Under the pieces are notes generated by a model. It had not been told where the DNA came from. It worked only from the letters and a program-made list of their open reading frames with translations, and did not search any database. 54,215 bases of DNA. It comes from a virus. Every line of letters starts with the position of its first letter. Position 1 is the stretch's first letter. A program made the translations under genes and the position numbers. The stretch is taken from IMG/VR virus record IMGVR_UViG_3300010151_000016, positions 1-54,215 of that record; one strand, 5' to 3'. Positions 14,147-47,572 of this stretch are shown here, piece by piece.

Positions 14147-14308
14147 ATGGCAATTGAAGAAGGCTTTCGTCGTACCGGAACTGCCGAAAATTCTACATTA
14201 GGTTTAGTGTCATTGGACACGGACGATTCGCCTTCGCCGTCCCAGTCCCAGATCGATTCGTCAAGCGATGACGAGACTAAAGAAGAAGAAGACGAGCAAG
14301 ATAAATGA
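14147..14308 (+). CDS. Acidic 53-residue mini-protein between portal and protease
   Basis: An open frame from ATG 14147 encodes 53 residues with a Ser/Asp-rich middle and a run of acidic residues near the C terminus (DDETKEEEDEQDK). Its TGA overlaps the ATG of the following gene as ATGA, the arrangement used by many gene pairs here. No clear ribosome-binding site is visible, and no family is recognised. It could be a scaffold-like or internal head peptide. Without it the 221 bases after the portal would be an unusually long gap for this genome. Confidence 0.45.
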   Translation: MAIEEGFRRTGTAENSTLGLVSLDTDDSPSPSQSQIDSSSDDETKEEEDEQDK

Positions 14309-17070
14309 GCTTCTATAAAATCGGCAAAGTTGAATCGCTCGCGACGTATGACGTAGATAGCGAAGGTCATATTCGATCTGCGGCACAAGATTCCGATTCA
14401 CCTAACCGTTCTTATTATGCAGACGGTGCGCGAAAGATCGATGTGAACGCTATCCTCGAACGTGCTGCATCGAAATTCGATATTTCAGCCGACCCCAAAG
14501 ATTACTTGTTTGAAGCGATTCGAGCAAACACAACCAATATACCAAACGAGAACGAAGACGCATTTCATCGCGAGGAACTTCTCCGCTTCGACCGTCGTGA
14601 AGGTATGCCGGTCTACATGTCTTATACCGGAAAACCGCATCACGTAAATCACAAGACGGATAATCCGAAGACTGCACGAGGCGTTATCCTCGACGCACAC
14701 TACAATGATGACGCACCCTCTATCGCTTCTTGTCCTGGTTGCGCGTCAGACACACTAGACAAACGCGCTCGTGATGAGAGTGGTATTCATTGTCTGAAGT
14801 GTGGTGCAACAGTAAAAGACGAGTTCGTAGAGATCTTGGTCGCTGTTGACACGAGAAAAGATCCAGTATTCGCTAAAGGTGTGAGAACAGGTCAGCTAAA
14901 AGCTGGCTCAATGGGCTGTAATTGTGCGCGTACACAATGTAACGTTTGCGACCATATCGCCTACTCTCAACCGGAATTCTGCGAACACATTCGCGGAGGC
15001 AACAAAGGTACACTGTGGGCTAAATCAGCACGTGGACAATGGCAACGGGTAGAAAAGCGTTCTGCTGAACATACTCTCAAAAGGGCAGGCACGAAGTTGT
15101 CACCAGATTTTTGTTATGCGAAAGTCGGTGGCGTTGAGATTCGTAAAGCCTTTGAGCGATGTCAGGGCGTACAGTTCGACGAGTATTCTCGCGTTCATCA
15201 ACCTGCCGATCCAAAAGCAACGTCGATTGAAGTTCTACAAGCCACTGCTTCTGCATCAACGTCCTTAGAAACTGAGTCGGAACTTCTACTGCTGAAGACG
15301 CGGCTTGCTAAATTGGAGAGCAAAGTAGCTATGAAAAAAACAGCAGATGAAATTCCTCCCGGCCTGCCGCCGATGGAAGCAGACAAGACCGCAGACGAGT
15401 ATAGCTATGAAACCCCAGAAGGCGAGCACATCGTAGTCGCACCGAATCCCGATGGTGAAGGCGTTGTTATTGGACCAGAAGGAGTAAGTAGCGAACTACC
15501 TGAAGACGAATTGGCCCCCTCTATGGGCATTGATGAGTATCAAGAAGAACAACTTCCAGAGAACTCAACCGGAGAAGAGTTAGGTCTCGATCTTGGTGGC
15601 CCGTCTGAACCTGCACCTGAATCTATTGAAGATTCCCCACTTCCACCACCCCCAACAAGACGATCACCCCCGGTAGCTCCGGGTATGAGACAAGGAGCGC
15701 GTATGTTCAAGAGCAGTTACAATAAGTGGACTGTTGAAGTCACTGAGCGCGGAAATGCTCGCGTCATCGCCCCAGAAGGTGCAGTGATGTTGATCCGCGC
15801 TCGTCAAGCAAAGAAAACTGCAAGTAAGAAGGATTTTGGTAAAGAGATCTTATCGAGCTTGTTCGACGGTGGTCTCGTGAAGACTGCCAAAAAATACAAG
15901 GCGTTGATTTCGCCACGATTCGCAAGTATCACAGCCGATCCAATCGGCGATATGTCAATCAAACGTAGCGAACCTACGAATCCCGTTTCTGCTGGTGGCG
16001 ACTGCGATCAAAAAGATGGCTGTCCTCCCGCTTATTCCGGTCAATCTGCGACTGATGGTGGTGAAAGTGATGGACCTGAACGTGGAACCGGTGATTCTGT
16101 AACTGAAGCAGGTCATGCCGATCACGATAATAGAGGAGATGCAGCTACCAGTGCCCTCGAAGGTGGTATCACAGACGGACCTGAACACAAAAAGGTGAAC
16201 GTCGGAAAGGATACTCCGCTTGCAGATCCAGTGAATGATCGGGCTGCTTCGTATATCGGACGGCGCGTAGCCGCAAAAAGCTGGGCCAACGCTGACGCAG
16301 AAACGCTTCGAGAAGAAAGCTGGCTCGTAACCAAACGAGACGCTTCAGCGGATATGTACACACTTCGACGTGGTGAGGACACTTGTGAGATCGGAAACGA
16401 TGACCTCCAAGCTGCCTGGATCATGCTCGATAAGGTTGCGTTGCCTACCAGTAAAGTCGAAGATCGACTGAAGAAAATTCATGCTGCGCGAATCGCGAAG
16501 CTAGAAGATCAACAAAACGAGGCCGTGGAAGCTGGCATTTCTAAATTCATTCGAGCGTTGAAACTCGTTGCGGCTCGTCAAGCAATCAACGTAGAAGACG
16601 CACCGTTGAAAGAATCGTTAGGTGTCGCTCTCTCGAACGCTCGCGAAGTAGGTCGCGATGTCCGCACTGGACACTCGATCACCTACGAAGCCATGCCTGA
16701 AGATCTTGCTGTGCATCTCATTGAGTCTGCATGGAAAGATGGCGGTGATACCCACATCGACCAATTACTCTCTCGCGCTGCCGACCTTGCTGGACGCAGT
16801 GACGAATACTTGGCTGATGCCGAAGCTGACTTGTCAGCACGGCAGGGGTCACATCGCATCGCAACACTAACGTACAAAGAACAAGTCAGTTCTGAAGAGC
16901 GTCGAGCGGCAAGAATCCGCGAAGAAGCTCTTACAGGAAACTTGCAACTCAACACCTCGTCATCGGTAACGACTCCGGTTCCATCGAATGGGCACAATAA
17001 ATCTGCGTCTATTCGGGGAGCCTTGTCTAATACGAAGGCGGGCTTAATCAAACGTCAGTTCCAGTCCTGA
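14305..17070 (+). CDS. Prohead-protease-like protein fused to a scaffold-like region
   Basis: The N-terminal 290 residues fit the large-phage head-maturation protease pattern: a conserved His in NHKTDNPKTARG (His116), valine-rich strands, then Ser202 in SMGC as likely nucleophile, followed by a Cys/His cluster (CNC, CNVC, CEH). A rubredoxin-like pair (C143-x2-C146, C163-x2-C166) lies between His and Ser. From about 330 on it is acidic, Pro-rich and then helical, like a scaffold or core protein. Lys-Thr-Ala occurs at 345-347, 361-363, 504-506 and 526-528, mostly in linkers, possibly self-cleavage sites. It lies directly before the decoration and capsid genes, as expected for a protease-scaffold. 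The catalytic assignment is inferred from motif and position. Confidence 0.7.
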   Translation: MSFYKIGKVESLATYDVDSEGHIRSAAQDSDSPNRSYYADGARKIDVNAILERAASKFDISADPKDYLFEAIRANTTNIPNENEDAFHREELLRFDRREGMPVYMSYTGKPHHVNHKTDNPKTARGVILDAHYNDDAPSIASCPGCASDTLDKRARDESGIHCLKCGATVKDEFVEILVAVDTRKDPVFAKGVRTGQLKAGSMGCNCARTQCNVCDHIAYSQPEFCEHIRGGNKGTLWAKSARGQWQRVEKRSAEHTLKRAGTKLSPDFCYAKVGGVEIRKAFERCQGVQFDEYSRVHQPADPKATSIEVLQATASASTSLETESELLLLKTRLAKLESKVAMKKTADEIPPGLPPMEADKTADEYSYETPEGEHIVVAPNPDGEGVVIGPEGVSSELPEDELAPSMGIDEYQEEQLPENSTGEELGLDLGGPSEPAPESIEDSPLPPPPTRRSPPVAPGMRQGARMFKSSYNKWTVEVTERGNARVIAPEGAVMLIRARQAKKTASKKDFGKEILSSLFDGGLVKTAKKYKALISPRFASITADPIGDMSIKRSEPTNPVSAGGDCDQKDGCPPAYSGQSATDGGESDGPERGTGDSVTEAGHADHDNRGDAATSALEGGITDGPEHKKVNVGKDTPLADPVNDRAASYIGRRVAAKSWANADAETLREESWLVTKRDASADMYTLRRGEDTCEIGNDDLQAAWIMLDKVALPTSKVEDRLKKIHAARIAKLEDQQNEAVEAGISKFIRALKLVAARQAINVEDAPLKESLGVALSNAREVGRDVRTGHSITYEAMPEDLAVHLIESAWKDGGDTHIDQLLSRAADLAGRSDEYLADAEADLSARQGSHRIATLTYKEQVSSEERRAARIREEALTGNLQLNTSSSVTTPVPSNGHNKSASIRGALSNTKAGLIKRQFQS

Positions 17071-28087: not shown

Positions 28088-28275
28088 TAGGAACAGCCTG
28101 TTTAGTTTTGAGCTTCATCGGTATCTTAGTCTTAGCGGGATTGAGAATTAGTCACACAGACGCAACATTTTTAGAGGTCGTGTATCTTTATGGCATAGAG
28201 ACATGGCTTACTTCTATATTTTTGGGGTTAGGTATCTGGTGCTTAATCAAGGAGTTTGAGCACGATGACTATTGA
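28075..28275 (+). CDS. Small two-helix membrane protein
   Basis: 66 residues with hydrophobic segments at about 3-24 and 40-60 and an acidic tail. GGAGG lies five bases before the ATG. It is embedded between two glycosyltransferases with overlaps on both sides. Function unknown; it may anchor the sugar machinery at the membrane. Confidence 0.6.
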   Translation: MRAVIGTACLVLSFIGILVLAGLRISHTDATFLEVVYLYGIETWLTSIFLGLGIWCLIKEFEHDDY

Positions 28276-31105
28276 CAGGCGTTACCGTAAGCAGGTTGCG
28301 CGAGCATACCAAGATATCTTAGGTAGAGATCCTACAGAGAAAGAGATCGAAGAGAATTATGATCTAGGTTTAGCTACTGCAAGTGAGATCGCACAGCGTC
28401 TACGGTATGTGTACAAGGTAAAGAACCGTATCGACTTTGCGTCTATCCAGTCTCCGTGCGGTCGACCTCTCCACATGGAAGAGCTTGAGGCACGCAAGAA
28501 AGCTATCGAGCGTCAACGAAGTAAGCCTATTCAGCGCATAAAGGGACACGTTTTTTCAGGTGATCCAGTTGATGAAGTTTACCGTTGGGAAAAGATTGTC
28601 CGTCAAATGTACAGAAATTACCTGCACAGAGATCCGTTAGATCCCGACAATTTAGACCTGCCCGGTTTTTGTTCTTACGTCTATGAAGATACGCGTCCTC
28701 TTCTTGACACAGAAAACGAGATAGGAAATTCTCAAGAAGCCAGAAGCCTTATTTCTTTTTCGGAAATGATCGACTCGTCCGCCGAGACTGAACCCATATT
28801 TGATGCAGAGCCAGGAAAACCTAAGCTGGTTAGTCTTCTCATATCTGCATACAAAGCAGGTAAATGGATCGAAGGGTGCGTGGCTAACGTATTAGATCAA
28901 GAACTCCCCGTTGATTGGGACATAGAGATTATAGTTGGAATCGATGGTTGTTCATCTACGTTGGCTTCCGCTAAAAACATACAAGATCCCAGGGTCAAGG
29001 TTGTTTGGTTTCCAGAGAACAACGGAACCTATATCACATATAATTCTATTGTCCCTTATTCTCGTGGGTGCTTACTCGTCCGACATGACGCAGATGATCT
29101 TATGGGAGAAGGACGTCTGCTAATAATGATCGAGGAATTCCAACGAGACCGAGAACTTGGATTAGTGGGAACTTGGTATACTAACTGTGATGAAAACATG
29201 GTACGGCATCCATTGCAGTCAAAGGGGCGGTGCGCAGATGGCGTATTTATGTGGCGACGGTCTGTATGGATTGGAGTTATTGGCGGCTACAGGGGATGGC
29301 GGTGCGGTGCAGACACCGAGGCATTAGAACGTGCAAAGTATTTGAGAATCAGATCAAAGTGCATCAAGGATAGTGACTTGTATTTCCGTAGAATACATAG
29401 TAACTCACTAACCAGATCACCAGATACGTATCTAGCACACTCCAAAGGCCAGTCCGAACGTGGACCAGAGAGACATAAAAGTGCCCTTTGCTTGCTTTGG
29501 TTGGCGATGAAATATAAGAAGGGCTTAGAAACACCTAAGAGAGTAGAACCTAAAAAAGTTGAAGGTATTGTTTTTGGCTTCGGCTCCACCAGGACAGTGC
29601 TGGACACTATAACAGTTTCGCTCGCCAGTATTCCTGGAAGACGCGACACGCTTGAAAAAGTTGTAGCGTGTCTTCTTCCTCAAGTTGATCAGCTAAACGT
29701 CTACCTCAATAATTATCCAGACGTGCCTGAATTTCTATCTGCTGATAAAATAACTGTAGCTAGGAGCCAAGATCACGGAGACCACGCGAACCTAAGTAAA
29801 TTCTTTTGGATGGACGCGGCGCAGGGTTATTATATGACATGTGACGATGACATATTATATCCTAGTGATTACGTGGCAAAAACAATCGAAGGAATAGAAA
29901 GGTACAATCGTAGAGCAATTATTAGTTGGCATGCCTCAACACTTACAAAAGACTTCAGTAATTATTATAGAACCGCTACCCCGAAAACTCATGTTCCTTC
30001 GCGTATAGTGGACTGTTTTCATGGATTCAGTGGCGAAGACAAGGCTGTTCATGTCCCAGGCTCGGGTACATTAGGCATGCACACAGACCTAAAACTCCTC
30101 ACCCGAGATTCTTTTAGTGAGAGTTACCTAACTGATGTTGACATAGGACTCTTAGCACAGCGTGCCAGTGTCCCGATAATCACACCCAAAAGGGATAAGG
30201 GGTGGATTCCCGAAGGGCCAAATGATGCGGTGTCTTATTGGACGCGAGGAAGAGATGGAGAGTTTTCAGAAACGAACTCATATGTGTCTGATTTCCCTTG
30301 GAGAACGACACACACAACTGATCATGTTATCTCCGTGATAATTTCAGCGTGGCAAACAGAAGCGTGGGTAGAAGACGCGGTGCGCTCCGTATTAGCGCAA
30401 GACTTACCTGATGGTTGGAAAATAGAAGTCCTGTTAGGAACAGACGGGTGTGAATCGACCAAGGTAGCATGTGAGCCTCTTTATGCTGATGATCGAGTTG
30501 GCATAGTCCACTTTGACGAAAACAGAGGAAGCCCGGTTGTCTTCAATGATCTACTTTCTATTTGTTCAGGTGAACTGGTTTCAAGACATGACGCAGATGA
30601 TCTCATGTTGCCTGGAAGACTATCTTTAATCATCAAAGCCTTTGAGGACCAAAATGTAGACCTCGTCAACACTTTTTGGATTGACGGTCCTGAAGGAGAC
30701 AGCAGACCAGCAAAAGTGAAAGGAGGAAATTCCAAAGAGTTCCCGCAACCTCCAGCAAACGGAGTGTGGACTTGGAGACGTGAGGCAATTGAGAGACTAG
30801 GCGCATTTGATGATTGGCGCGTAGCTGAAGACGCAGAACTTCTTATGCAAGCAGACTTAGCTGAAATGAAAAGAGAGGTTATACCTCAACCGTTATACTT
30901 CCGACGCAGACACGCAAACAGCATTATTCATCAACAGGAAACATGCCCAACTAGCGAATACATGAAAGAAAAGCTCGCCGAACTTGAGAGACGCAAAAAG
31001 AACAAAATAAAAAGACCTCCATTTGTTCCCAAGAAAGTTCGGGGGGAATTCCGTGGCCGTCTTTGGGAAGGCGCTGTCATTATCGACGGCACTAAGTTTG
31101 AGTGA
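28265..31105 (+). CDS. Tandem glycosyltransferase with three GT-A-like domains
   Basis: About 946 residues. The N-terminal 60 residues resemble a DUF4214-type helical unit (AYQDILGRDPTEKEIEENY). Then come a GT2 domain from about 185 (LVSLLISAYKAGKWIEG; acidic D275-A-D-D), a middle GT-A-like domain from about 445 (RRDTLEKVVACLLPQVDQ; D527-D-D), and another GT2 domain from about 690 (VISVIISAWQTEAWVED; D776-A-D-D). The first and third are clearly homologous. Start ATG 28265 has AAGGAG ten bases upstream; an in-frame TTG at 28256 is too close to it. A polymerase-like enzyme that alternates sugars is one possibility. Confidence 0.85.
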   Translation: MTIDRRYRKQVARAYQDILGRDPTEKEIEENYDLGLATASEIAQRLRYVYKVKNRIDFASIQSPCGRPLHMEELEARKKAIERQRSKPIQRIKGHVFSGDPVDEVYRWEKIVRQMYRNYLHRDPLDPDNLDLPGFCSYVYEDTRPLLDTENEIGNSQEARSLISFSEMIDSSAETEPIFDAEPGKPKLVSLLISAYKAGKWIEGCVANVLDQELPVDWDIEIIVGIDGCSSTLASAKNIQDPRVKVVWFPENNGTYITYNSIVPYSRGCLLVRHDADDLMGEGRLLIMIEEFQRDRELGLVGTWYTNCDENMVRHPLQSKGRCADGVFMWRRSVWIGVIGGYRGWRCGADTEALERAKYLRIRSKCIKDSDLYFRRIHSNSLTRSPDTYLAHSKGQSERGPERHKSALCLLWLAMKYKKGLETPKRVEPKKVEGIVFGFGSTRTVLDTITVSLASIPGRRDTLEKVVACLLPQVDQLNVYLNNYPDVPEFLSADKITVARSQDHGDHANLSKFFWMDAAQGYYMTCDDDILYPSDYVAKTIEGIERYNRRAIISWHASTLTKDFSNYYRTATPKTHVPSRIVDCFHGFSGEDKAVHVPGSGTLGMHTDLKLLTRDSFSESYLTDVDIGLLAQRASVPIITPKRDKGWIPEGPNDAVSYWTRGRDGEFSETNSYVSDFPWRTTHTTDHVISVIISAWQTEAWVEDAVRSVLAQDLPDGWKIEVLLGTDGCESTKVACEPLYADDRVGIVHFDENRGSPVVFNDLLSICSGELVSRHDADDLMLPGRLSLIIKAFEDQNVDLVNTFWIDGPEGDSRPAKVKGGNSKEFPQPPANGVWTWRREAIERLGAFDDWRVAEDAELLMQADLAEMKREVIPQPLYFRRRHANSIIHQQETCPTSEYMKEKLAELERRKKNKIKRPPFVPKKVRGEFRGRLWEGAVIIDGTKFE

Positions 31106-32460: not shown

Positions 32461-33288
32461 TTATTTTCTGTAGTGCTGTTCTAGTAGCTCGCATATTCCG
32501 TCTATCGACGGCTCAATTATCTTTATGCCTGGAGGTATGTCTTCTTCAGTCTTTTCTACGTCCAATATATCATATGTCGTTACCTTATCGTAGTTGTGGT
32601 ATTTGCAAAATGCGTCTCTCAAGTCGTGCAATCCGATCTTGTAACATTTCTCGACAGTGAATACGTCAGGATTACCAATTGAATCAATCAGTCTCTCGGT
32701 TACAACCGTTATCGGAGTGAAGTATCTTATCGCATCATTACCTCCAACAGTGATTGAGTCGCCGTCAATTCTTTGCTTATCCCAAATATCTAATACGCTA
32801 CCAGTGGAAAATAAGAAGTTCACTCCCCTAAATACGCCGAAACCCGACTCTTGGAAGAGTCTTTCCGCGAGGCACTTAGTCATGCCGTATACACACGAAG
32901 GGTTTATTGCCTTGTCGGTACTGATTAGTATTGCGTTTTTTACGTCGTGTCTTGTCGACGCCTCAACTATGTTAGCACTGCCGAGTAAATTTACCTTGAT
33001 GGACCTAGTCGGATTTCTCTCACAAATCCCAACGTGTTTTACTGCGCCAGCATGGATAACGTAGTCGACAGAGTGATCCTTCATTATTTGATGTATTTTA
33101 TGTCCGTCGCAACCAAGGTCAAAAGTGTAAATTTGTATAGCGCCCTTGAACGTTCGATTAAATTCTTCTGCACGTACCTCTGAATTTCCTGTGCCGACTA
33201 CAAGATAATCCAGGTCGAGCAACGCCTTGCACAAATGTCTGCCTAGGAAGCCCGTCGCACCTGTCACCAGAACTTTTTTCTCTGTCAT
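32461..33288 (-). CDS. Nucleotide-sugar 4,6-dehydratase/epimerase (extended SDR, CapD/PseB-like)
   Basis: 275 residues from ATG at 33288. NAD(P)-binding G10-x2-G13-x2-G16 lies in VTGATGFLG, AGAVKHVGICERNP is the typical substrate loop, and STDKAINPSCVYGMTK contains the catalytic Tyr134-x3-Lys138. This pattern is that of UDP-GlcNAc 4,6-dehydratases such as PseB, FlaA1 and CapD; it is somewhat short for them (about 330). The only minus-strand gene in the window. It probably supplies a modified sugar donor to the adjacent glycosyltransferases but must be transcribed separately. Confidence 0.88.
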   Translation of the reverse strand: MTEKKVLVTGATGFLGRHLCKALLDLDYLVVGTGNSEVRAEEFNRTFKGAIQIYTFDLGCDGHKIHQIMKDHSVDYVIHAGAVKHVGICERNPTRSIKVNLLGSANIVEASTRHDVKNAILISTDKAINPSCVYGMTKCLAERLFQESGFGVFRGVNFLFSTGSVLDIWDKQRIDGDSITVGGNDAIRYFTPITVVTERLIDSIGNPDVFTVEKCYKIGLHDLRDAFCKYHNYDKVTTYDILDVEKTEEDIPPGIKIIEPSIDGICELLEQHYRK

Positions 33289-33337
33289 CTTATTTATACA
33301 TGAGGACCAATCCAATCTTTTTTGTGATGTATAGGGC

Positions 33338-33604
33338 ATGGATACCAATATGACGCTCGGCTTGGGTGAGGCCATCGCTCGCTTGGTGCGTATTGAAACT
33401 CTGCAAACGCGAGGTCTTCGTCCTACAGAAGAAATGCGGGCTGAGGCTCAAATGATCGTAGACGCATTGAATCAGTATACGCTAGATCTCAATTTCGCTT
33501 GCAGCATAGAAGTCGCGCCTGATAACGGGATCGGCATTTTCGAACAATCAGTCGCGACGTCGTGTTGTAGGTTAGTGTCTACGTCAGACACAAGTCGTGG
33601 TTAG
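33338..33604 (+). CDS. Small protein of unknown function
   Basis: 88 residues; helical N-terminal half (EAIARLVRIETLQTRGL) and a Cys-containing C-terminal half (SVATSCCRLV). Divergent from the dehydratase, with 49 bases between starts. ATG 33350 is an alternative start. First gene of the rightward block that runs to the window end. Confidence 0.5.
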   Translation: MDTNMTLGLGEAIARLVRIETLQTRGLRPTEEMRAEAQMIVDALNQYTLDLNFACSIEVAPDNGIGIFEQSVATSCCRLVSTSDTSRG

Positions 33605-40857: not shown

Positions 40858-43416
40858 ATGGCACTAAATACGTCTAAATACACCGACCCAGGTGCGTACA
40901 TTGGTGAAGTTCTCGTTCCTGGCGCGATCAACATCGCAGGGCAAGCGTTCGTCACCTGTCTCATCGGCACGGGCAACCGTTCTAAGAACGTTTCCAACGA
41001 AGCGGCTGTTCGAGGCTTTGTTGGCAGCGAGAGTATCATCTGGTATACCACGGCGGTCAGTGGCTATCATCTTTCGTCCGTATTCGCTAATCGCGGTGAT
41101 CGAAAGACAGCGAACACCGTCGTTTACAAAGATGGAACCGCTATCGCGGATACGCTTCTTCGGTATCCTCCTGCGTACATCACCGGCACCGCATTGTTGG
41201 GCGGGACGTTTACACTTGATGTTAATGAGCGTTCACTCGTTATTGGATTCGACGGAAAAGTTCCTCTCACGGTCAAGACGGCAGTTCAAGGAACAGCCGG
41301 AAATACAACAATTAGTGCGACGAGCACATACGTTGTATCCGATACCGGTGCTGCAAATGTAACTGTGTTTACGAAAGCACTAATTGTTGCGGCGATCAAT
41401 TCAGCGTTCGAAGATCACCCTTCTTATGGTGCGAGCTACGCTGGTGTAGCTTCAATATCAGGCAATTACATAAAGCTCACTTCTCCGACTTCTGGAGCAA
41501 CGTCTGACGTTGTCATCTTCAATGCGATTGGGGGAACAGGTGCGACAGAGCTATTTGGTGGCGCACCGACCGCTGCCGCACCTCTTCGACCGGGCACGCA
41601 GGTAGAAATTGCTGCGAGTCAATACTCCGCTAGTTCAACCTACACAGTCGATTATGTTTCTGACGCCCTTTCGCCTGACGCAGACGGCCTCGTGCAGACA
41701 ACGGGCGTTACAGCAATCAGTCAAGTCGGAGACTTCGCAGGCACAGATACCTATGGCACTGATGCTGAAGGTTATACGCTTGCATCGAGTAAGGTGTCTT
41801 GGGCAGGAGCCGCATGGACAACCGCCTCGATCACAGGCTCGACCATCACGGTCGGGGATGCACTGGCGGAAGGCGCTTCAGACGTTCTCAAGATCGCCAT
41901 TGATAACAAAGCTGCGTTGGAAATAGACCTCGTCGGAACGATGACCCAAGATGGATGGACGACTGCACCGGGGTCTACCGCCACAGACATCGCGACAAAC
42001 ATCAACATTAAGCTAGCAGATTCTTTGGTCTACGGTCCTGCATACCAAGCTGTAGCAAGTGCCGTAGGTAGTGTTATCGTTCTCACGTCTCCGACAAAGG
42101 GAAGAAACGGCGCACTTCAATTATTCGCTCCTGCCGCGAACGATGCGACAGGGAGTCTGTTTTCTAACGTAGTCGTAGCGTCTTCATACACACAGGGCAC
42201 AGGCAAGGCACCAGGAGTCGGCTCGACCTACTTCGTTTCATATACTCATGATCGCCCATCAACAGATTACGCTTCCAGCACTGCGGGTCGCCTAACCCGT
42301 CACTTCTCACTAGACTCAGCGTTTGACGAAGTCGGAGGACATGGAGCCGCGACGTCTGCTCCATCGAATCCTTTAGCTATGGCAATAGAGATCGCATTTG
42401 CTAATGGTGCAGAGAGTGTAGTCATCGCGCAGATTGATGATTCGACAACTGCTGGTACGCCCTCGATGCCTGAGATCCAAGAAGCCTTGGACGTTGTTGG
42501 TGAGTCTGGGATACCGACCGAGATCTGCTTAGTCGGCGCTGCGGGCACATTACTCGCTGCGCAGGTTGCCTTGAAAGATCACATTGAGAACAATAGCGGT
42601 CCTTTCAATAAGCAATACCGACGTGCCTGGATGGGCTTAGGTCGCGATGCTCAAATTGGCGACAAAGAAACAGCAGACACGATCATTTATACAGCCGCTA
42701 AAACCTTGCAAGTATCGGCGAACTCCGCTGCTCGCGGACGCTTGATTGTGATGGCACCTCCACAAGTGGGCGTGCTCACGAAAACAGTGCGGCTTACGGA
42801 CGGCACAATCATAAACGACGTTGCGCTCGACTCGACCTATTTGGCAGTCGCAGCAGCAGCAAGACAGACATCGTTTGATTCACCTTCCGATACGCTAGCT
42901 CGTCAGACCTTGGCCGGTTTTGATATTGACACCATCACGCGACCGATTAGCACAGTAGAGCGTGCTCAAATGGCTTCAGCGGGTGTGACAGTCGTAACAT
43001 ATGACGCAGGCAATCTCAGGCTACTCGATCCAATTACGACCGAGAGGGCTGGTGGGGCCATGATCAGTTTCGAACAGATCCAGGCATCACTGCAAAAAGA
43101 CAACGTCACCCGCAAAATGACTCAAGGACTAGACGCTAATCTCGTCGCGATTGTGCCGACCGACCTATCCTCGTTCGTCTTGGACATCAAGAGTGTAATC
43201 GGATCTATCATATCGGGTGAGATAAGCGCGGGCTCGGTTGGTCCGTATCTCACAGATTCGGGGTTGCCTAGACCTGTGAGTTATGTCGATGACATGGAAG
43301 TCACGCAAGATCCAAACGACCCGACGAAGTTCAACTTTAAGTACTTTTACAACTTACGCTATCCAGCACTTCGATTGTTTGGTGAATACAGCGTCGACAA
43401 TCCGTTCTTCGGATAA
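40858..43416 (+). CDS. Tail sheath protein
   Basis: The contractile outer tube of the tail. 852 residues, longer than T4 gp18 (659). The N terminus (TDPGAYIGEVLVPGAINIAGQAF) and the C-terminal block (SFEQIQASLQKDN, KFNFKYFYNLRYPALRLFGEYSV) are characteristic sheath segments. The extra length is two similar insert domains around bases 41230-41560 and 41830-42165, probably surface-exposed on the tail. GAGGTGAC lies just before the ATG. Followed by tube genes. Confidence 0.9.
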   Translation: MALNTSKYTDPGAYIGEVLVPGAINIAGQAFVTCLIGTGNRSKNVSNEAAVRGFVGSESIIWYTTAVSGYHLSSVFANRGDRKTANTVVYKDGTAIADTLLRYPPAYITGTALLGGTFTLDVNERSLVIGFDGKVPLTVKTAVQGTAGNTTISATSTYVVSDTGAANVTVFTKALIVAAINSAFEDHPSYGASYAGVASISGNYIKLTSPTSGATSDVVIFNAIGGTGATELFGGAPTAAAPLRPGTQVEIAASQYSASSTYTVDYVSDALSPDADGLVQTTGVTAISQVGDFAGTDTYGTDAEGYTLASSKVSWAGAAWTTASITGSTITVGDALAEGASDVLKIAIDNKAALEIDLVGTMTQDGWTTAPGSTATDIATNINIKLADSLVYGPAYQAVASAVGSVIVLTSPTKGRNGALQLFAPAANDATGSLFSNVVVASSYTQGTGKAPGVGSTYFVSYTHDRPSTDYASSTAGRLTRHFSLDSAFDEVGGHGAATSAPSNPLAMAIEIAFANGAESVVIAQIDDSTTAGTPSMPEIQEALDVVGESGIPTEICLVGAAGTLLAAQVALKDHIENNSGPFNKQYRRAWMGLGRDAQIGDKETADTIIYTAAKTLQVSANSAARGRLIVMAPPQVGVLTKTVRLTDGTIINDVALDSTYLAVAAAARQTSFDSPSDTLARQTLAGFDIDTITRPISTVERAQMASAGVTVVTYDAGNLRLLDPITTERAGGAMISFEQIQASLQKDNVTRKMTQGLDANLVAIVPTDLSSFVLDIKSVIGSIISGEISAGSVGPYLTDSGLPRPVSYVDDMEVTQDPNDPTKFNFKYFYNLRYPALRLFGEYSVDNPFFG

Positions 43417-43433: not shown

Positions 43434-43940
43434 ATGAGTAACGTACAACCCCCATTAACTTCTACTTTTACCAATCATGGCATGGTCATCCGGGCCAAAG
43501 GCGTAAACGTAGGCGCGATTAGTCAATGGAACACTTCTCAGACCCGAGGGCACACTGCTGTATATGCTTTTGGTGGCACACCACCCACAGGAGCCGGTAT
43601 AAGTTATCCTGCTAGTGGACCAGGCGAAGCCTACGAAAAAGTACCTGGGAATGTCTCTGGAACTACGATCTCCGTAAACCGCTACGACCTCTATGTCGCA
43701 CGCATGGAAGAAGTGTTCGGCGCTGAATCTGACTTGAACATGCTCTCTGAACAACACAGTCCATTTGATATTGTAGAATTTTGGAATACTCCAACCGCTA
43801 CGGGCGCAAACCTGTCTCAACTAAAGTATCAATATACCGGTTGCTGGTTTTCCAATTTAGGTCGAACTCAATCGACAACTGGTGATCGAATCGTAAATGT
43901 AAACGCAACCATCGAATACGTGCGAAGAAAGAAGATGTAA
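43434..43940 (+). CDS. Tail tube protein, copy 1
   Basis: 168 residues. Strands such as GMVIRAKGVNVGAISQWN, an ISVNRYDLYVARMEEVFG hairpin and the end YQYTGCWFSNLGRTQSTTGDRIVNVNATIEYVRRK are tube-type. It shares this layout with the next gene. Located directly after the sheath, as expected for the inner tube. Confidence 0.8.
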   Translation: MSNVQPPLTSTFTNHGMVIRAKGVNVGAISQWNTSQTRGHTAVYAFGGTPPTGAGISYPASGPGEAYEKVPGNVSGTTISVNRYDLYVARMEEVFGAESDLNMLSEQHSPFDIVEFWNTPTATGANLSQLKYQYTGCWFSNLGRTQSTTGDRIVNVNATIEYVRRKKM

Positions 43941-43985: not shown

Positions 43986-44591
43986 TTGGCTAAATTTGAT
44001 CCAGGAAACATCGACCACTATAAAGTGGACTTCTTACGGCAGAAGGCTAAGTCCGGTGGCTGGAACATGGGCAAGAGTTCGCCGAAAGAAGCGCCGAACA
44101 CTGCTACACGAACAAACCATGCACTGACGATACACGGGATACACGGTTCAAAACGTCGCGTCATCGGCGCAATTAGTGACTTCAACGTCCAACAATCACG
44201 AGCACTCACCGAAATACAAGAAGTCAATGTCAATGCTTATGGTCAACCGGTAGACATCATCCCAGGACACATGACAACGCGGACGATCAATGTTCAGCGT
44301 TACGACCTCTATTCTAAAGTCATAGAAGAACTCTTTGCAGATGACACTGCGCCATTCAAAGAATGGAACATGCTACTCGACCAGACGCGCCCATTTGTAC
44401 TCAGAACAGTCTGGTTGAATCCGTCAGGAGGAACCTTTGGAGCCATCGGTGGCGCTCTTTCAGGGAAGCGCGTCTACGAATTTCTGGGTTGCTGGTTCAC
44501 CAGCATGGGACGAACGATTAGCTCCAAGGGTGATCGAATTATCAACGTCAACGCAACAATACAATGGAAGGAAAGAAGGCGAATCAAATGA
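43986..44591 (+). CDS. Tail tube protein, copy 2 (TTG start)
   Basis: 201 residues from TTG 43986, supported by CGGAGG seven bases upstream; there is no suitable ATG. It is a paralogue of the previous gene: ISDFNVQQSRALTEIQ, NVQRYDLYSKVIEELF and FLGCWFTSMGRTISSKGDRIINVNATIQW correspond to the same segments in copy 1. It carries a 40-residue N-terminal extension. One copy may form the tube and the other an initiator or cap. It overlaps the chaperone by ATGA. Confidence 0.78.
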   Translation: MAKFDPGNIDHYKVDFLRQKAKSGGWNMGKSSPKEAPNTATRTNHALTIHGIHGSKRRVIGAISDFNVQQSRALTEIQEVNVNAYGQPVDIIPGHMTTRTINVQRYDLYSKVIEELFADDTAPFKEWNMLLDQTRPFVLRTVWLNPSGGTFGAIGGALSGKRVYEFLGCWFTSMGRTISSKGDRIINVNATIQWKERRRIK

Positions 44592-45094
44592 AGGCAAAAC
44601 GACATCAACTACTAGAAAAACTCATACAAGGTAAACCTGTAACAGCCGATGTAGAAATCGACGGACACACGTACACTGTACAGACGCTAAACACCGCAGA
44701 GGAAGACTGGGTCAACCAGTATCTTTTTGGCGCTACACCGACGCAAATGGCAGCGGGTATCATGACACCGAAGGTATCTGCATCATTGACCGCGATTGAT
44801 GGGATATCCGTCAATGATTTATTTAGCCTTCCTGCTGACGCTGGCGAAGACCTCAGAGAAGAAATGAAAGACGCGAAAGTCAAACGTGCGTGGGTCCGAA
44901 GTCAAGTCCATGAATTTGTCGGCGAACTCAAGCCGTCGACCACGGTTAAACTTCTCACCACGCTCACGGGGCTCGATGAAAAAATCCTCGACGCAGAGGA
45001 AGACCTGGGAAACTCATCAAGGAGGATTACTTCTGGGGGGTCAAATCTTACGTCCTCGCCAGGAAAGGAATCCTCCTTACAGACCCAAGTGTAG
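44588..45094 (+). CDS. Tail assembly chaperone, short form
   Basis: 168 residues from ATG 44588, overlapping copy 2 of the tube by four bases. The body up to about residue 140 (IDGHTYTVQTLNTAEEDWVNQYLFG, then an acidic Asp/Glu-rich helical part) is chaperone-like. The last 26 residues (NSSRRITSGGSNLTSSPG onwards) are low-complexity and lie in the wrong frame relative to the conserved continuation. This is the lambda gpG-like product; the long gpGT-like product arises by a -1 shift at 45007-45013. Both bind the tape measure during tail assembly in known phages. Confidence 0.8.
   Translation: MKAKRHQLLEKLIQGKPVTADVEIDGHTYTVQTLNTAEEDWVNQYLFGATPTQMAAGIMTPKVSASLTAIDGISVNDLFSLPADAGEDLREEMKDAKVKRAWVRSQVHEFVGELKPSTTVKLLTTLTGLDEKILDAEEDLGNSSRRITSGGSNLTSSPGKESSLQTQV
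45007..45013 (+). promoter_or_regulatory. Programmed -1 ribosomal frameshift slippery site GGGAAAC
   Basis: In the chaperone frame the codons read CTG GGA AAC, so G GGA AAC is the canonical X XXY YYZ heptamer. The -1 frame continues at once into protein-like sequence (KLIKEDYFWGVKSYVLARKG) joined to the gene ending at 45447. Five bases downstream AAGGAGGATT (45019-45028) pairs perfectly with AATCCTCCTT (45069-45078): a 10-bp stem with a 40-base loop, the expected stimulator. Lambda uses the nearly identical GGGAAAG. Confidence 0.9.
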
Positions 45095-45447
45095 AGATGA
45101 TGACGCGGGTACAATGGCTTTTTGAATTCCACTCGCTCAAAGATAGAGAGGAATCACTTTTAGACGCAGTAGTAAGTCTTCTTGGACTTAAGATTGGCCG
45201 TAAAGAGAAAGTCGTACCATTGTCAATGCTCGTAGGTAATCCAAAGATTCTACAACATTTCGCTAAAGAAGCGGAGACAGAAGAAGCGGTGGACGATGAA
45301 GCCTTTGATAAGTTCAGTGACCTATTAGCTAAAGGAGATCTCGATCCTCTTTTCGAGTTACCCGAAGAGATGTCTCCCGAAGAGAACTGGGACTCACCTG
45401 ATGTACAACAAACGCTTGATGCACTGGGAATAAAACGCGATGGCTGA
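45013..45447 (+). CDS. Tail assembly chaperone, frameshift extension (gpT-like)
   Basis: The frame is open from 44980 and needs no start of its own. Read after the slip it gives about 144 residues (KEDYFWGVKSYVL, then WLFEFHSLKDREESLLDAVVSLLG, acidic C terminus). Added to 142 upstream residues this makes a chaperone of about 286 residues. An ATG at 45097 exists and is what gene callers would choose, but it would remove the first 28 residues, which look protein-like. Eight-base overlap with the tape-measure gene, its expected partner. Confidence 0.8.
   Translation, partial: LIKEDYFWGVKSYVLARKGILLTDPSVEMMTRVQWLFEFHSLKDREESLLDAVVSLLGLKIGRKEKVVPLSMLVGNPKILQHFAKEAETEEAVDDEAFDKFSDLLAKGDLDPLFELPEEMSPEENWDSPDVQQTLDALGIKRDG
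45019..45078 (+). promoter_or_regulatory. Stimulatory stem-loop for the -1 frameshift
   Basis: A perfect 10-bp inverted repeat (AAGGAGGATT / AATCCTCCTT) with a 40-base loop, five bases after the slippery heptamer. The left arm also resembles a Shine-Dalgarno sequence, which could add to ribosome pausing. Confidence 0.8.
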
Positions 45448-47572
45448 TAACCAAGACGTCATAGACGCAATCAATAGTCTAGTTCGTCTTATAGAACAAA
45501 ACGCACGTGTGCGTCCCAGTGAATCAACGACGTCTTTCGTAAGCGGCACTGCGAGTAATGACTCGCACCAAAAGAGAATGGAGAACATTCGCAAGGAGCG
45601 CGAAGAAGAAGAAAAGACTGTCGATTTAGTCTCAAGTAGATGGGAACAGTTCTGGAACAAAAGAAAAGACCACGAAGAAAAATGGGCCACTAGACGAGAT
45701 CAAGCGAATCAGGCCGCAACTGACTTCATGAAAAAGAACCGAGATGGGACACTCGGCGAAGGACAGACAGGCATACTTTCTGGGAAGTCGGGAGGTGCAA
45801 ATTTTCAGGCTTTCACACGGGGCTTACTTCAAGGCATGCCTTTTGGCGGTCTCATAGGATTTTTACTATTAGGTGAGATCAAACGACAAGAATTCGAAGC
45901 AAGTGGAAACATAATCAATCTAGCGTTCGACGATATAGGTAAGCGCGGCAAAGATCTGAATGGTGTGTTTGGCTCTATGCAACGTAGTCTTGACAAAATG
46001 TCGATTGGAGGGAAAGCAGATCTCGAAGCTGTAGGCTCTGCTTTTGCGAGCGCAGGCATCAAAGCAGAAGACATGATGAAAAATGTCTTCGGTAAGGCTA
46101 AAGGCGAAAGGGGGGGTCCAACCAATATGCTCCGCGATTCTTTGGCAGGAATCACTTTTTCGATGGACAAGGTCTTTAACATGGCCGCAGGTACAGGAGC
46201 TAAAGCACTTTCTGGAAGCATACGCGATATCGGCCAAGATATAGCTAAAACAAGTCAAGAGTTTGTCGGCTTTTCTTTAGCCTATTCTGATTTAGGTGTA
46301 AAAGGCTCACTTCTAGTCAACACGTTCTCAGAGGTCACGTCTGCTCTGCGTCTACAACGCTCTAGCATGGAAGGCACACTTCCCATGTTTGGAGCCCTCC
46401 TCGGGAACAAGGGCGGGGGAATAGCTCCAGAGGCAAATCTACAGCACAGACAACAGATGGCCGCGCAAGGAATGACAGGTATGGCGGGTGCCGTTGGCGG
46501 AATGCGTCCAGGGCTTTCTGCGTTATTCGGTGAGAAAATTTTCGGGAAGCAAGGTATTGACGCAGTTATCGGTTGGCAAGAAGGCTTCGCTAACATGAAA
46601 TCGGGCGACACTAAGGGGGATGGCTTCTTCGCAAAGGCAGCAGGAGGAATCTCTAAGTGGCTAAGTGATACGTTTGGAAAAGATACCAATATGCAGAAGT
46701 GGGGCGCACAGAAAGCATTAGGTGTTGATCCATTGACTGCACGTGCCTTCGTTGCTTTTGCCCAAGGTGCAGCGGAAAACAAGAGTTCAAATAAAACTGC
46801 TGCTCAGAAAAGAGCCGCACTAAATACACTCATCAAACAATTGAATACTGATATGAAGGACCGTCAGCCTCTTAAGGTGGCAGATTTCCTACGTGAGCAG
46901 AAGAAGTTACAAGTCCTTCTTCAAAAGATAGCGTCTTCGTTGTTGCAATTCCTCATGAAAAGTTTAGACCTGATCGCTACTACTTTAATGGGGATTTTAA
47001 TGGTCGTGTCTGACCCCACGCGCACGGATGGCAGAAATAGAAAAATCGCGAAGCATGTGAAAGGGCGGTGGATAACGGATTCATTTAGCATGGAAAAAGA
47101 CCTAAAGACTATCTGGAATAACGCCGCAGAAATCCCTGGTGTTGCGGAGGACATGGTCAAAGATCTAGGAGGCATGTCTGGTGGTTCTTTTCAAGGAGTG
47201 CGCGGTTTAATCAATCTGTCGAAACCATCAAAGGTGGCGAAGGCAAAGCGAGAGAGCCAACGCTCAGAGATAAGGGCGAAACTAAGAAACAAATTTTCAG
47301 GACATGCGCTAACGAACCAAGAGCTTGATGAGTTAGCAGGCACCTATATTACGCCGGAAGGTGGTGAAGCCTATGGTGGCAAGTCTACGAGATGGAACGA
47401 GCGAACGACAATACTCAATCGGATCGCAGCACAACGCAAGATGCCCCCAAAAGCCAAAACAGAACTGCTTCGAATAGGTAGACTAAAAATAGCATTTACT
47501 ACTACGGCCACAGTCGTTGACGATGGTGTAGACAAGACGGAGCCTGGTTCTGATGTTGTTCCAAGCACATGA
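45440..47572 (+). CDS. Tape measure protein
   Basis: 710 residues: charged helical N terminus with coiled-coil stretches (EREEEEKTV), Gly/Ala-rich hydrophobic segments at about 135-155 (GMPFGGLIGFLLLGEI) and 490-525, and long helical, basic remainder. Tape measure proteins set tail length by about 0.15 nm per residue, which would predict a tail near 105 nm. Position after the chaperone pair and before baseplate genes is diagnostic. Confidence 0.82.
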   Translation: MADNQDVIDAINSLVRLIEQNARVRPSESTTSFVSGTASNDSHQKRMENIRKEREEEEKTVDLVSSRWEQFWNKRKDHEEKWATRRDQANQAATDFMKKNRDGTLGEGQTGILSGKSGGANFQAFTRGLLQGMPFGGLIGFLLLGEIKRQEFEASGNIINLAFDDIGKRGKDLNGVFGSMQRSLDKMSIGGKADLEAVGSAFASAGIKAEDMMKNVFGKAKGERGGPTNMLRDSLAGITFSMDKVFNMAAGTGAKALSGSIRDIGQDIAKTSQEFVGFSLAYSDLGVKGSLLVNTFSEVTSALRLQRSSMEGTLPMFGALLGNKGGGIAPEANLQHRQQMAAQGMTGMAGAVGGMRPGLSALFGEKIFGKQGIDAVIGWQEGFANMKSGDTKGDGFFAKAAGGISKWLSDTFGKDTNMQKWGAQKALGVDPLTARAFVAFAQGAAENKSSNKTAAQKRAALNTLIKQLNTDMKDRQPLKVADFLREQKKLQVLLQKIASSLLQFLMKSLDLIATTLMGILMVVSDPTRTDGRNRKIAKHVKGRWITDSFSMEKDLKTIWNNAAEIPGVAEDMVKDLGGMSGGSFQGVRGLINLSKPSKVAKAKRESQRSEIRAKLRNKFSGHALTNQELDELAGTYITPEGGEAYGGKSTRWNERTTILNRIAAQRKMPPKAKTELLRIGRLKIAFTTTATVVDDGVDKTEPGSDVVPST

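Follow-up and report, generated by a model that had tools for sequence, protein, structure and literature searches.

The two overlapping reading frames between the tail-tube-like genes and the tape-measure-type gene of a large phage raise the question of whether they encode two separate proteins or, by programmed −1 frameshifting, one short protein and a longer fusion of both. The evidence set out below indicates that the locus is very probably the tail assembly chaperone cassette (G/GT) of a myovirus-like phage, with the fusion product made via a −1 frameshift at the heptamer G GGA AAC. Judged from sequence, the frameshift is almost certainly real.

Layout of the G/T locus

The window is the whole 54,215-base virus record that was analyzed. 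Among its genes are those for terminase and portal, and it also encodes a domain resembling head maturation proteases. The tail genes follow the order sheath, tubes, G/T, and tape measure, which is shared with the related loci L002 and L003 (Table 1). The start codon of G overlaps the stop codon of the preceding tube gene (ATGA), and a second in-frame ATG for G is present upstream, at position 44564. The putative sheath protein itself matched nothing in PHROG or Pfam, and the tube-like genes weakly matched a PHROG family of virion structural proteins. In the relatives, two or three genes are found at the place of the two tandem tube-like genes of the window.

An earlier note on this DNA had proposed a canonical programmed −1 frameshift from three features: an in-phase heptamer, a perfect 10-bp stem five bases past it, and a −1 frame that is open from 44980 with its first ATG at 45097. 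All three features were confirmed. The zero-frame codons at the slip site are GGA (45008-45010) and AAC (45011-45013), which is the X XXY YYZ phase; the arms of the stem are perfect complements over 10 bp and enclose a 40-nt loop (45029-45068); and the −1 frame is free of stops from 44980 to 45447, with the ATG at 45097 as its first ATG, GTG, or TTG. In-phase X XXY YYZ heptamers occupy 24 of the 14,720 codons (0.16%) in the window's large open reading frames, and approximately 0.06 would be expected by chance in the 112-nt G/T overlap. Perfect stems of at least 10 bp beginning 3 to 9 nt past a given point are found at 0.04% of positions. The 83-nt segment downstream of the heptamer has a predicted folding energy of -28.3 kcal/mol (z = -2.5 versus dinucleotide shuffles), and a search of positions 44500-45600 against Rfam returned no match.

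Table 1. Coordinates of the tail genes and frameshift elements in the window
Feature	Coordinates	Strand	Basis or remark
Putative tail sheath protein	40858..43416	+	Size, position, conserved ends; anchor for finding relatives
Two tandem paralogous tail-tube-like genes	43434-43940 and 43986-44591	+	35% identity to each other
Gene G, zero frame, putative short tail assembly chaperone, 168 aa, start ATG 44588	44588..45094	+	Homologues in 28 loci; predicted fold
Predicted GT fusion, ~286 aa: zero frame to 45013, −1 slip, −1 frame to stop 45445-45447	44588..45447	+	Frame arithmetic and family conservation
Slippery heptamer G GGA AAC, in phase	45007..45013	+	In-phase heptamer at homologous place in 26/28 loci
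T domain, −1 frame after slip, 145 codons from AAA 45010 plus stop	45010..45447	+	
Spacer between heptamer and stem, 5 nt	45014..45018	+	5 nt likewise in L003 and L009; 5 to 6 nt in most relatives
Stem left arm, AAGGAGGATT	45019..45028	+	Folding, covariation, helix scan
Stem right arm, AATCCTCCTT	45069..45078	+	Folding, covariation, helix scan
Tape-measure-type gene directly 3′ of T, overlapping the end of T	45440..47572	+	Position; homologue in L003

Related loci

Relatives were collected with a sheath-profile scan of viral contigs, which yielded 33 contigs, and open reading frame profile searches of these contigs gave 28 distinct G/T pairs. L003, which was added by another profile scan, carries the heptamer AAAAAAT and a register-matched stem of 12 to 13 bp. 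Scans of viral contigs with the single sequences of G, T, or the sheath alone returned no matches, and neither did a nucleotide search of a phage collection. Scans of genome contigs with the T and sheath alignments were also without matches, and thus gave no link to a prophage or host.

The sole named relative is Virus Rctr197k (KX853510), whose genes 069 and 070 are homologous to G and T. The Rctr197k T frame aligns with the T of the window from end to end (35% identity, E 2e-24). The match takes in the block WGVxxYVLARKGxL, which is upstream of the annotated start, and T is conserved well before that start. In the deposited record, 069 and 070 are separate hypothetical genes, just as the earlier note had anticipated of a standard annotation; they look like one −1 frameshift pair, with CCCTTTA in phase. 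Gene 071, deposited as a misc_feature, corresponds to the tape-measure position.

A covarying stem-loop downstream of the slip site

The stem was analyzed in two groups, with group 1 being the ten loci whose T layout is closest to that of the window and group 2 comprising 15 loci. The group 1 helix has 12 pairs, of which five have double changes; 76.7% of its cells are paired and 11 are doubly changed, and its covariation score and paired percentage were reached by 0 of 500 shuffles, which ignore kinship. The group 2 helix has 13 pairs, with 94.4% of cells paired and 14 doubly changed, and its covariation score was likewise reached by 0 of 500 shuffles that ignore kinship. Pairing fell sharply in both groups when the arms were displaced by one, two, or three columns, and the family stem was the only long helix found in each group by an unguided conserved-helix scan over 160 nt. 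A conserved pseudoknot was rejected because the same scan gave no conserved loop-to-downstream helix in either group, although a pseudoknot confined to one lineage may exist.

The conserved helix is 12 to 13 bp long, starts 5 to 6 nt past the heptamer, and uses different codons in each subgroup; L009 carries a perfect 13-bp version. In loci of group 2, the conserved T block lies approximately 18 codons farther from the slip site, and their right arm is located in a different region of the code with the spacing to the heptamer kept. Thus, the stem follows the slip site and not the protein. No convincing stem was detected in L022, L036, or Rctr197k; in Rctr197k, the family stem has at best 6 bp and is not the MFE fold.

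The left arm of the stem is also Shine-Dalgarno (SD)-like, and the earlier note had suggested that it acts as a second pausing signal combined with the stem. The sequence AGGAGG is present within the arm. Across the family the left arm is rich in purines, and its anti-SD energy near +11/+12 averages -7.4 kcal/mol. Stimulatory SDs of the dnaX type, however, are situated ∼10 to 14 nt upstream of the slip site, whereas this arm is 3′ of it: for a ribosome bound at the heptamer, it lies ahead, in the mRNA entry channel, paired in the stem and beyond the 16S tail. Since the arm is ahead of the ribosome and inside a helix, ribosome geometry implies that it would not pair with 16S rRNA during slipping. 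The purine bias is accounted for by the G-rich base of the stem, and no ATG, GTG, or TTG is found at SD spacing past the arm. A real frameshift in which the left arm adds a second, anti-SD-mediated pause is therefore very unlikely, and this addition was rejected on account of the downstream position of the arm and its pairing in the stem.

Upstream of the heptamer, the SD-like stretch of the window is weak (-6.0 kcal/mol at -14). Strong upstream SD-like stretches (GAGGAGG/GGGAGG, -11 to -13 kcal/mol) are present ∼12 to 25 nt before the heptamer in L015, L019, L024, L025, L026, L029, L032, and L035. Their placement is near the dnaX arrangement, and they may be a by-product of Arg-Glu-rich codons.

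Conservation of the −1 frame and exchange of the heptamer

T is in the −1 frame of G in all 28 distinct loci, and 26 of these possess an in-phase X XXY YYZ heptamer at the homologous spot in the overlap, versus approximately 2 expected. Together with the covariation of the stem, the 28 loci strongly support the proposal that a programmed −1 frameshift of the canonical type, with a stem past the slip site, takes place here. Beyond the heptamer, the zero frame runs on for anywhere between 0 and 32 codons, which indicates that the conserved reading past the heptamer is the −1 frame. The conserved block WGVxxYVLARKGxL precedes any start codon in the window and in most close relatives.

These data bear on whether T might be a separate gene, started at ATG 45097 by termination-reinitiation or from a weak ribosome-binding site. 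This ATG is three bases past the G stop codon (TAG, 45092-45094), and Rctr197k gene 070 is annotated from the equivalent ATG, but a start there would omit 30 of the most strongly conserved codons in T. Across the family, T begun at the first possible start codon past the heptamer would lose typically 27 to 60 codons, and L036 has no possible T start in the first 200 nt. A separate gene would, moreover, leave the in-phase heptamers and the covarying stem unexplained. On these grounds an independent T gene was rejected as very unlikely.

The heptamer letters observed across the loci are GGGAAAC, CCCTTTA, CCCAAAC, AAAAAAT, AAAAAAA, AAAAAAC, and GGGAAAA, and at least nine changes among nine site types are needed on the sheath tree. 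Many relatives carry runs of 6 to 7 A, where RNA polymerase can slip, so that the fusion could in principle be made by transcriptional slippage instead of ribosomal frameshifting. No run is longer than ∼5, however, in the window (GGGAAAC) or in the members with CCCTTTA, CCCAAAC, or GGGAAAA, and a covarying RNA stem at fixed spacing suits a ribosomal stimulator. Transcriptional slippage was rejected for these two reasons and is hardly credible as the source of the fusion. That one gene was split by an error of sequencing or assembly is conceivable for a metagenomic contig, but this has a negligible probability and was rejected for the family, as the same −1 relation recurs in 28 divergent loci from many samples.

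The two loci that lack a standard heptamer plausibly have weaker sites. At the homologous slip position, L006 (9057-9063) has an in-phase G GAT TTC, which looks weaker; the stem is kept with 10 of 12 pairs. L022 (13676-13684) reads TCT TTT TGA, with no heptamer-like site, and its zero frame stops exactly where re-pairing on TTT in the −1 frame would open T. A single tRNA could possibly re-pair on TTT with the stop codon in the A site, amounting to a stop-codon-assisted slip; alternatively, a sequencing error in the T run is possible.

Predicted fold and function of G

No family match was found in Pfam or PHROG for the G or T of the window, and one of the 28 family members weakly matches phrog_2792, a tail assembly chaperone (E 0.022). 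Because no sequence-profile library recognizes G, its function was assigned from fold, position, and frameshift. Structures were predicted on an alignment without the Rctr197k sequence. The AlphaFold model of G is confident (pLDDT 90.8, pTM 0.81) and has as its best solved match the HK97 tail assembly chaperone 2OB9 (Foldseek probability 0.96, E 0.04), with a modest Z of 7.5 where the tool's caution level is 8; the second solved match is YqbN (3KLU). Among predicted viral proteins (BFVD), the model matches the chaperone of Rhodococcus phage Finch (E 6.9e-6) and that of Bacillus phage Gemini. The predicted fold of G is thus closest to that of the HK97 tail assembly chaperone. The model of T is poor (pTM 0.42).

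Comparison with known frameshift systems

G-T frameshifting is widely conserved among long-tailed double-stranded DNA phages (PMC5009743), and thousands of tail-chaperone frameshifts formed the training set of a prediction tool (PMC10885494). The locus is a known kind of frameshift, that of lambda G/GT (Levin 1993; Xu, Hendrix and Duda 2004, as cited in PMC5009743), and an ordinary phenomenon in an uncharacterized large phage with a contractile-type tail. The earlier note had not placed the locus in this classical class of tail-chaperone frameshifts, and a newly discovered recoded gene would have been much more unexpected. The window shares with lambda the order tube, G, −1 T, and tape measure, and a short zero-frame protein with a −1 fusion and an XXXYYYZ heptamer near the G end. 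It differs in having no detectable sequence similarity to lambda, a heptamer whose last three letters are AAC and not AAG, a stem 5 to 6 nt downstream that is conserved and covaries, and a sheath (myovirus-like). G_GGA_AAC is also the reported site in the haloarchaeal tailed virus HCTV-1 (PMC5009743), where the likeness consists of two features, the identical heptamer and the same gene role; HCTV-1 is a siphovirus with an archaeal host.

Rctr197k is alike in its homologous G and T, gene order, and in-phase heptamer, and differs in the letters of that heptamer and in its poorly formed stem. The fold search with the G model also returned gp181 and gp182 of Bacillus phage G, a G-sized and a larger product. 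In Escherichia coli dnaX, a heptamer is followed by a simple stem-loop at short spacing, as in the window, but dnaX uses A AAA AAG with an upstream SD, whereas the upstream SD-like stretch of the window is weak.

Proposed mechanism and its variation

Most ribosomes would read G through to its stop codon at 45094, yielding the short chaperone. A minority would pause at the simple stem-loop, whose base begins 6 nt past the heptamer G GGA AAC, slip by −1, and continue into T. If the phage behaves like lambda, the tape-measure protein would be coated by many G and few GT molecules, with the T part recruiting tube subunits. The gene position, the frames, the heptamer, the stem, their conservation, and the chaperone-like fold of G are seen from sequence; the G:GT ratio, a role of the stem in stimulating the slip, and the part played in assembly are inferred.

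We lean toward the view that the frameshift is set by the covarying simple stem-loop, which keeps its distance to the heptamer and has shifted its place in the protein code from one subgroup to the other, that the heptamer has been exchanged several times, and that, unlike in lambda, the ratio is under direct selection via RNA structure. What the comparison of stems shows, and the exchanges of the heptamer, add to a general picture that is unchanged, and involve no new mechanism. The approximately 28 natural variants, with at least seven heptamers and two stem placements, bear on how the level of tail assembly frameshifting is tuned, with the covarying stem-loop providing a natural mutational series. 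In practice, the names G and GT can be given to two "hypothetical" genes throughout a large phage clade that lacks annotation and to which the deposited genome Rctr197k belongs.

Other genes in the window

The head maturation protease-like domain is at the N-terminus of a 921-aa protein (14305-17070), possibly a protease-scaffold fusion. A nucleotide-sugar epimerase/dehydratase gene (32461-33375, minus strand) is located among plus-strand genes and near a two-domain glycosyltransferase gene (28256-31105), with which it may form a module for glycosylation of the virion or host surface.
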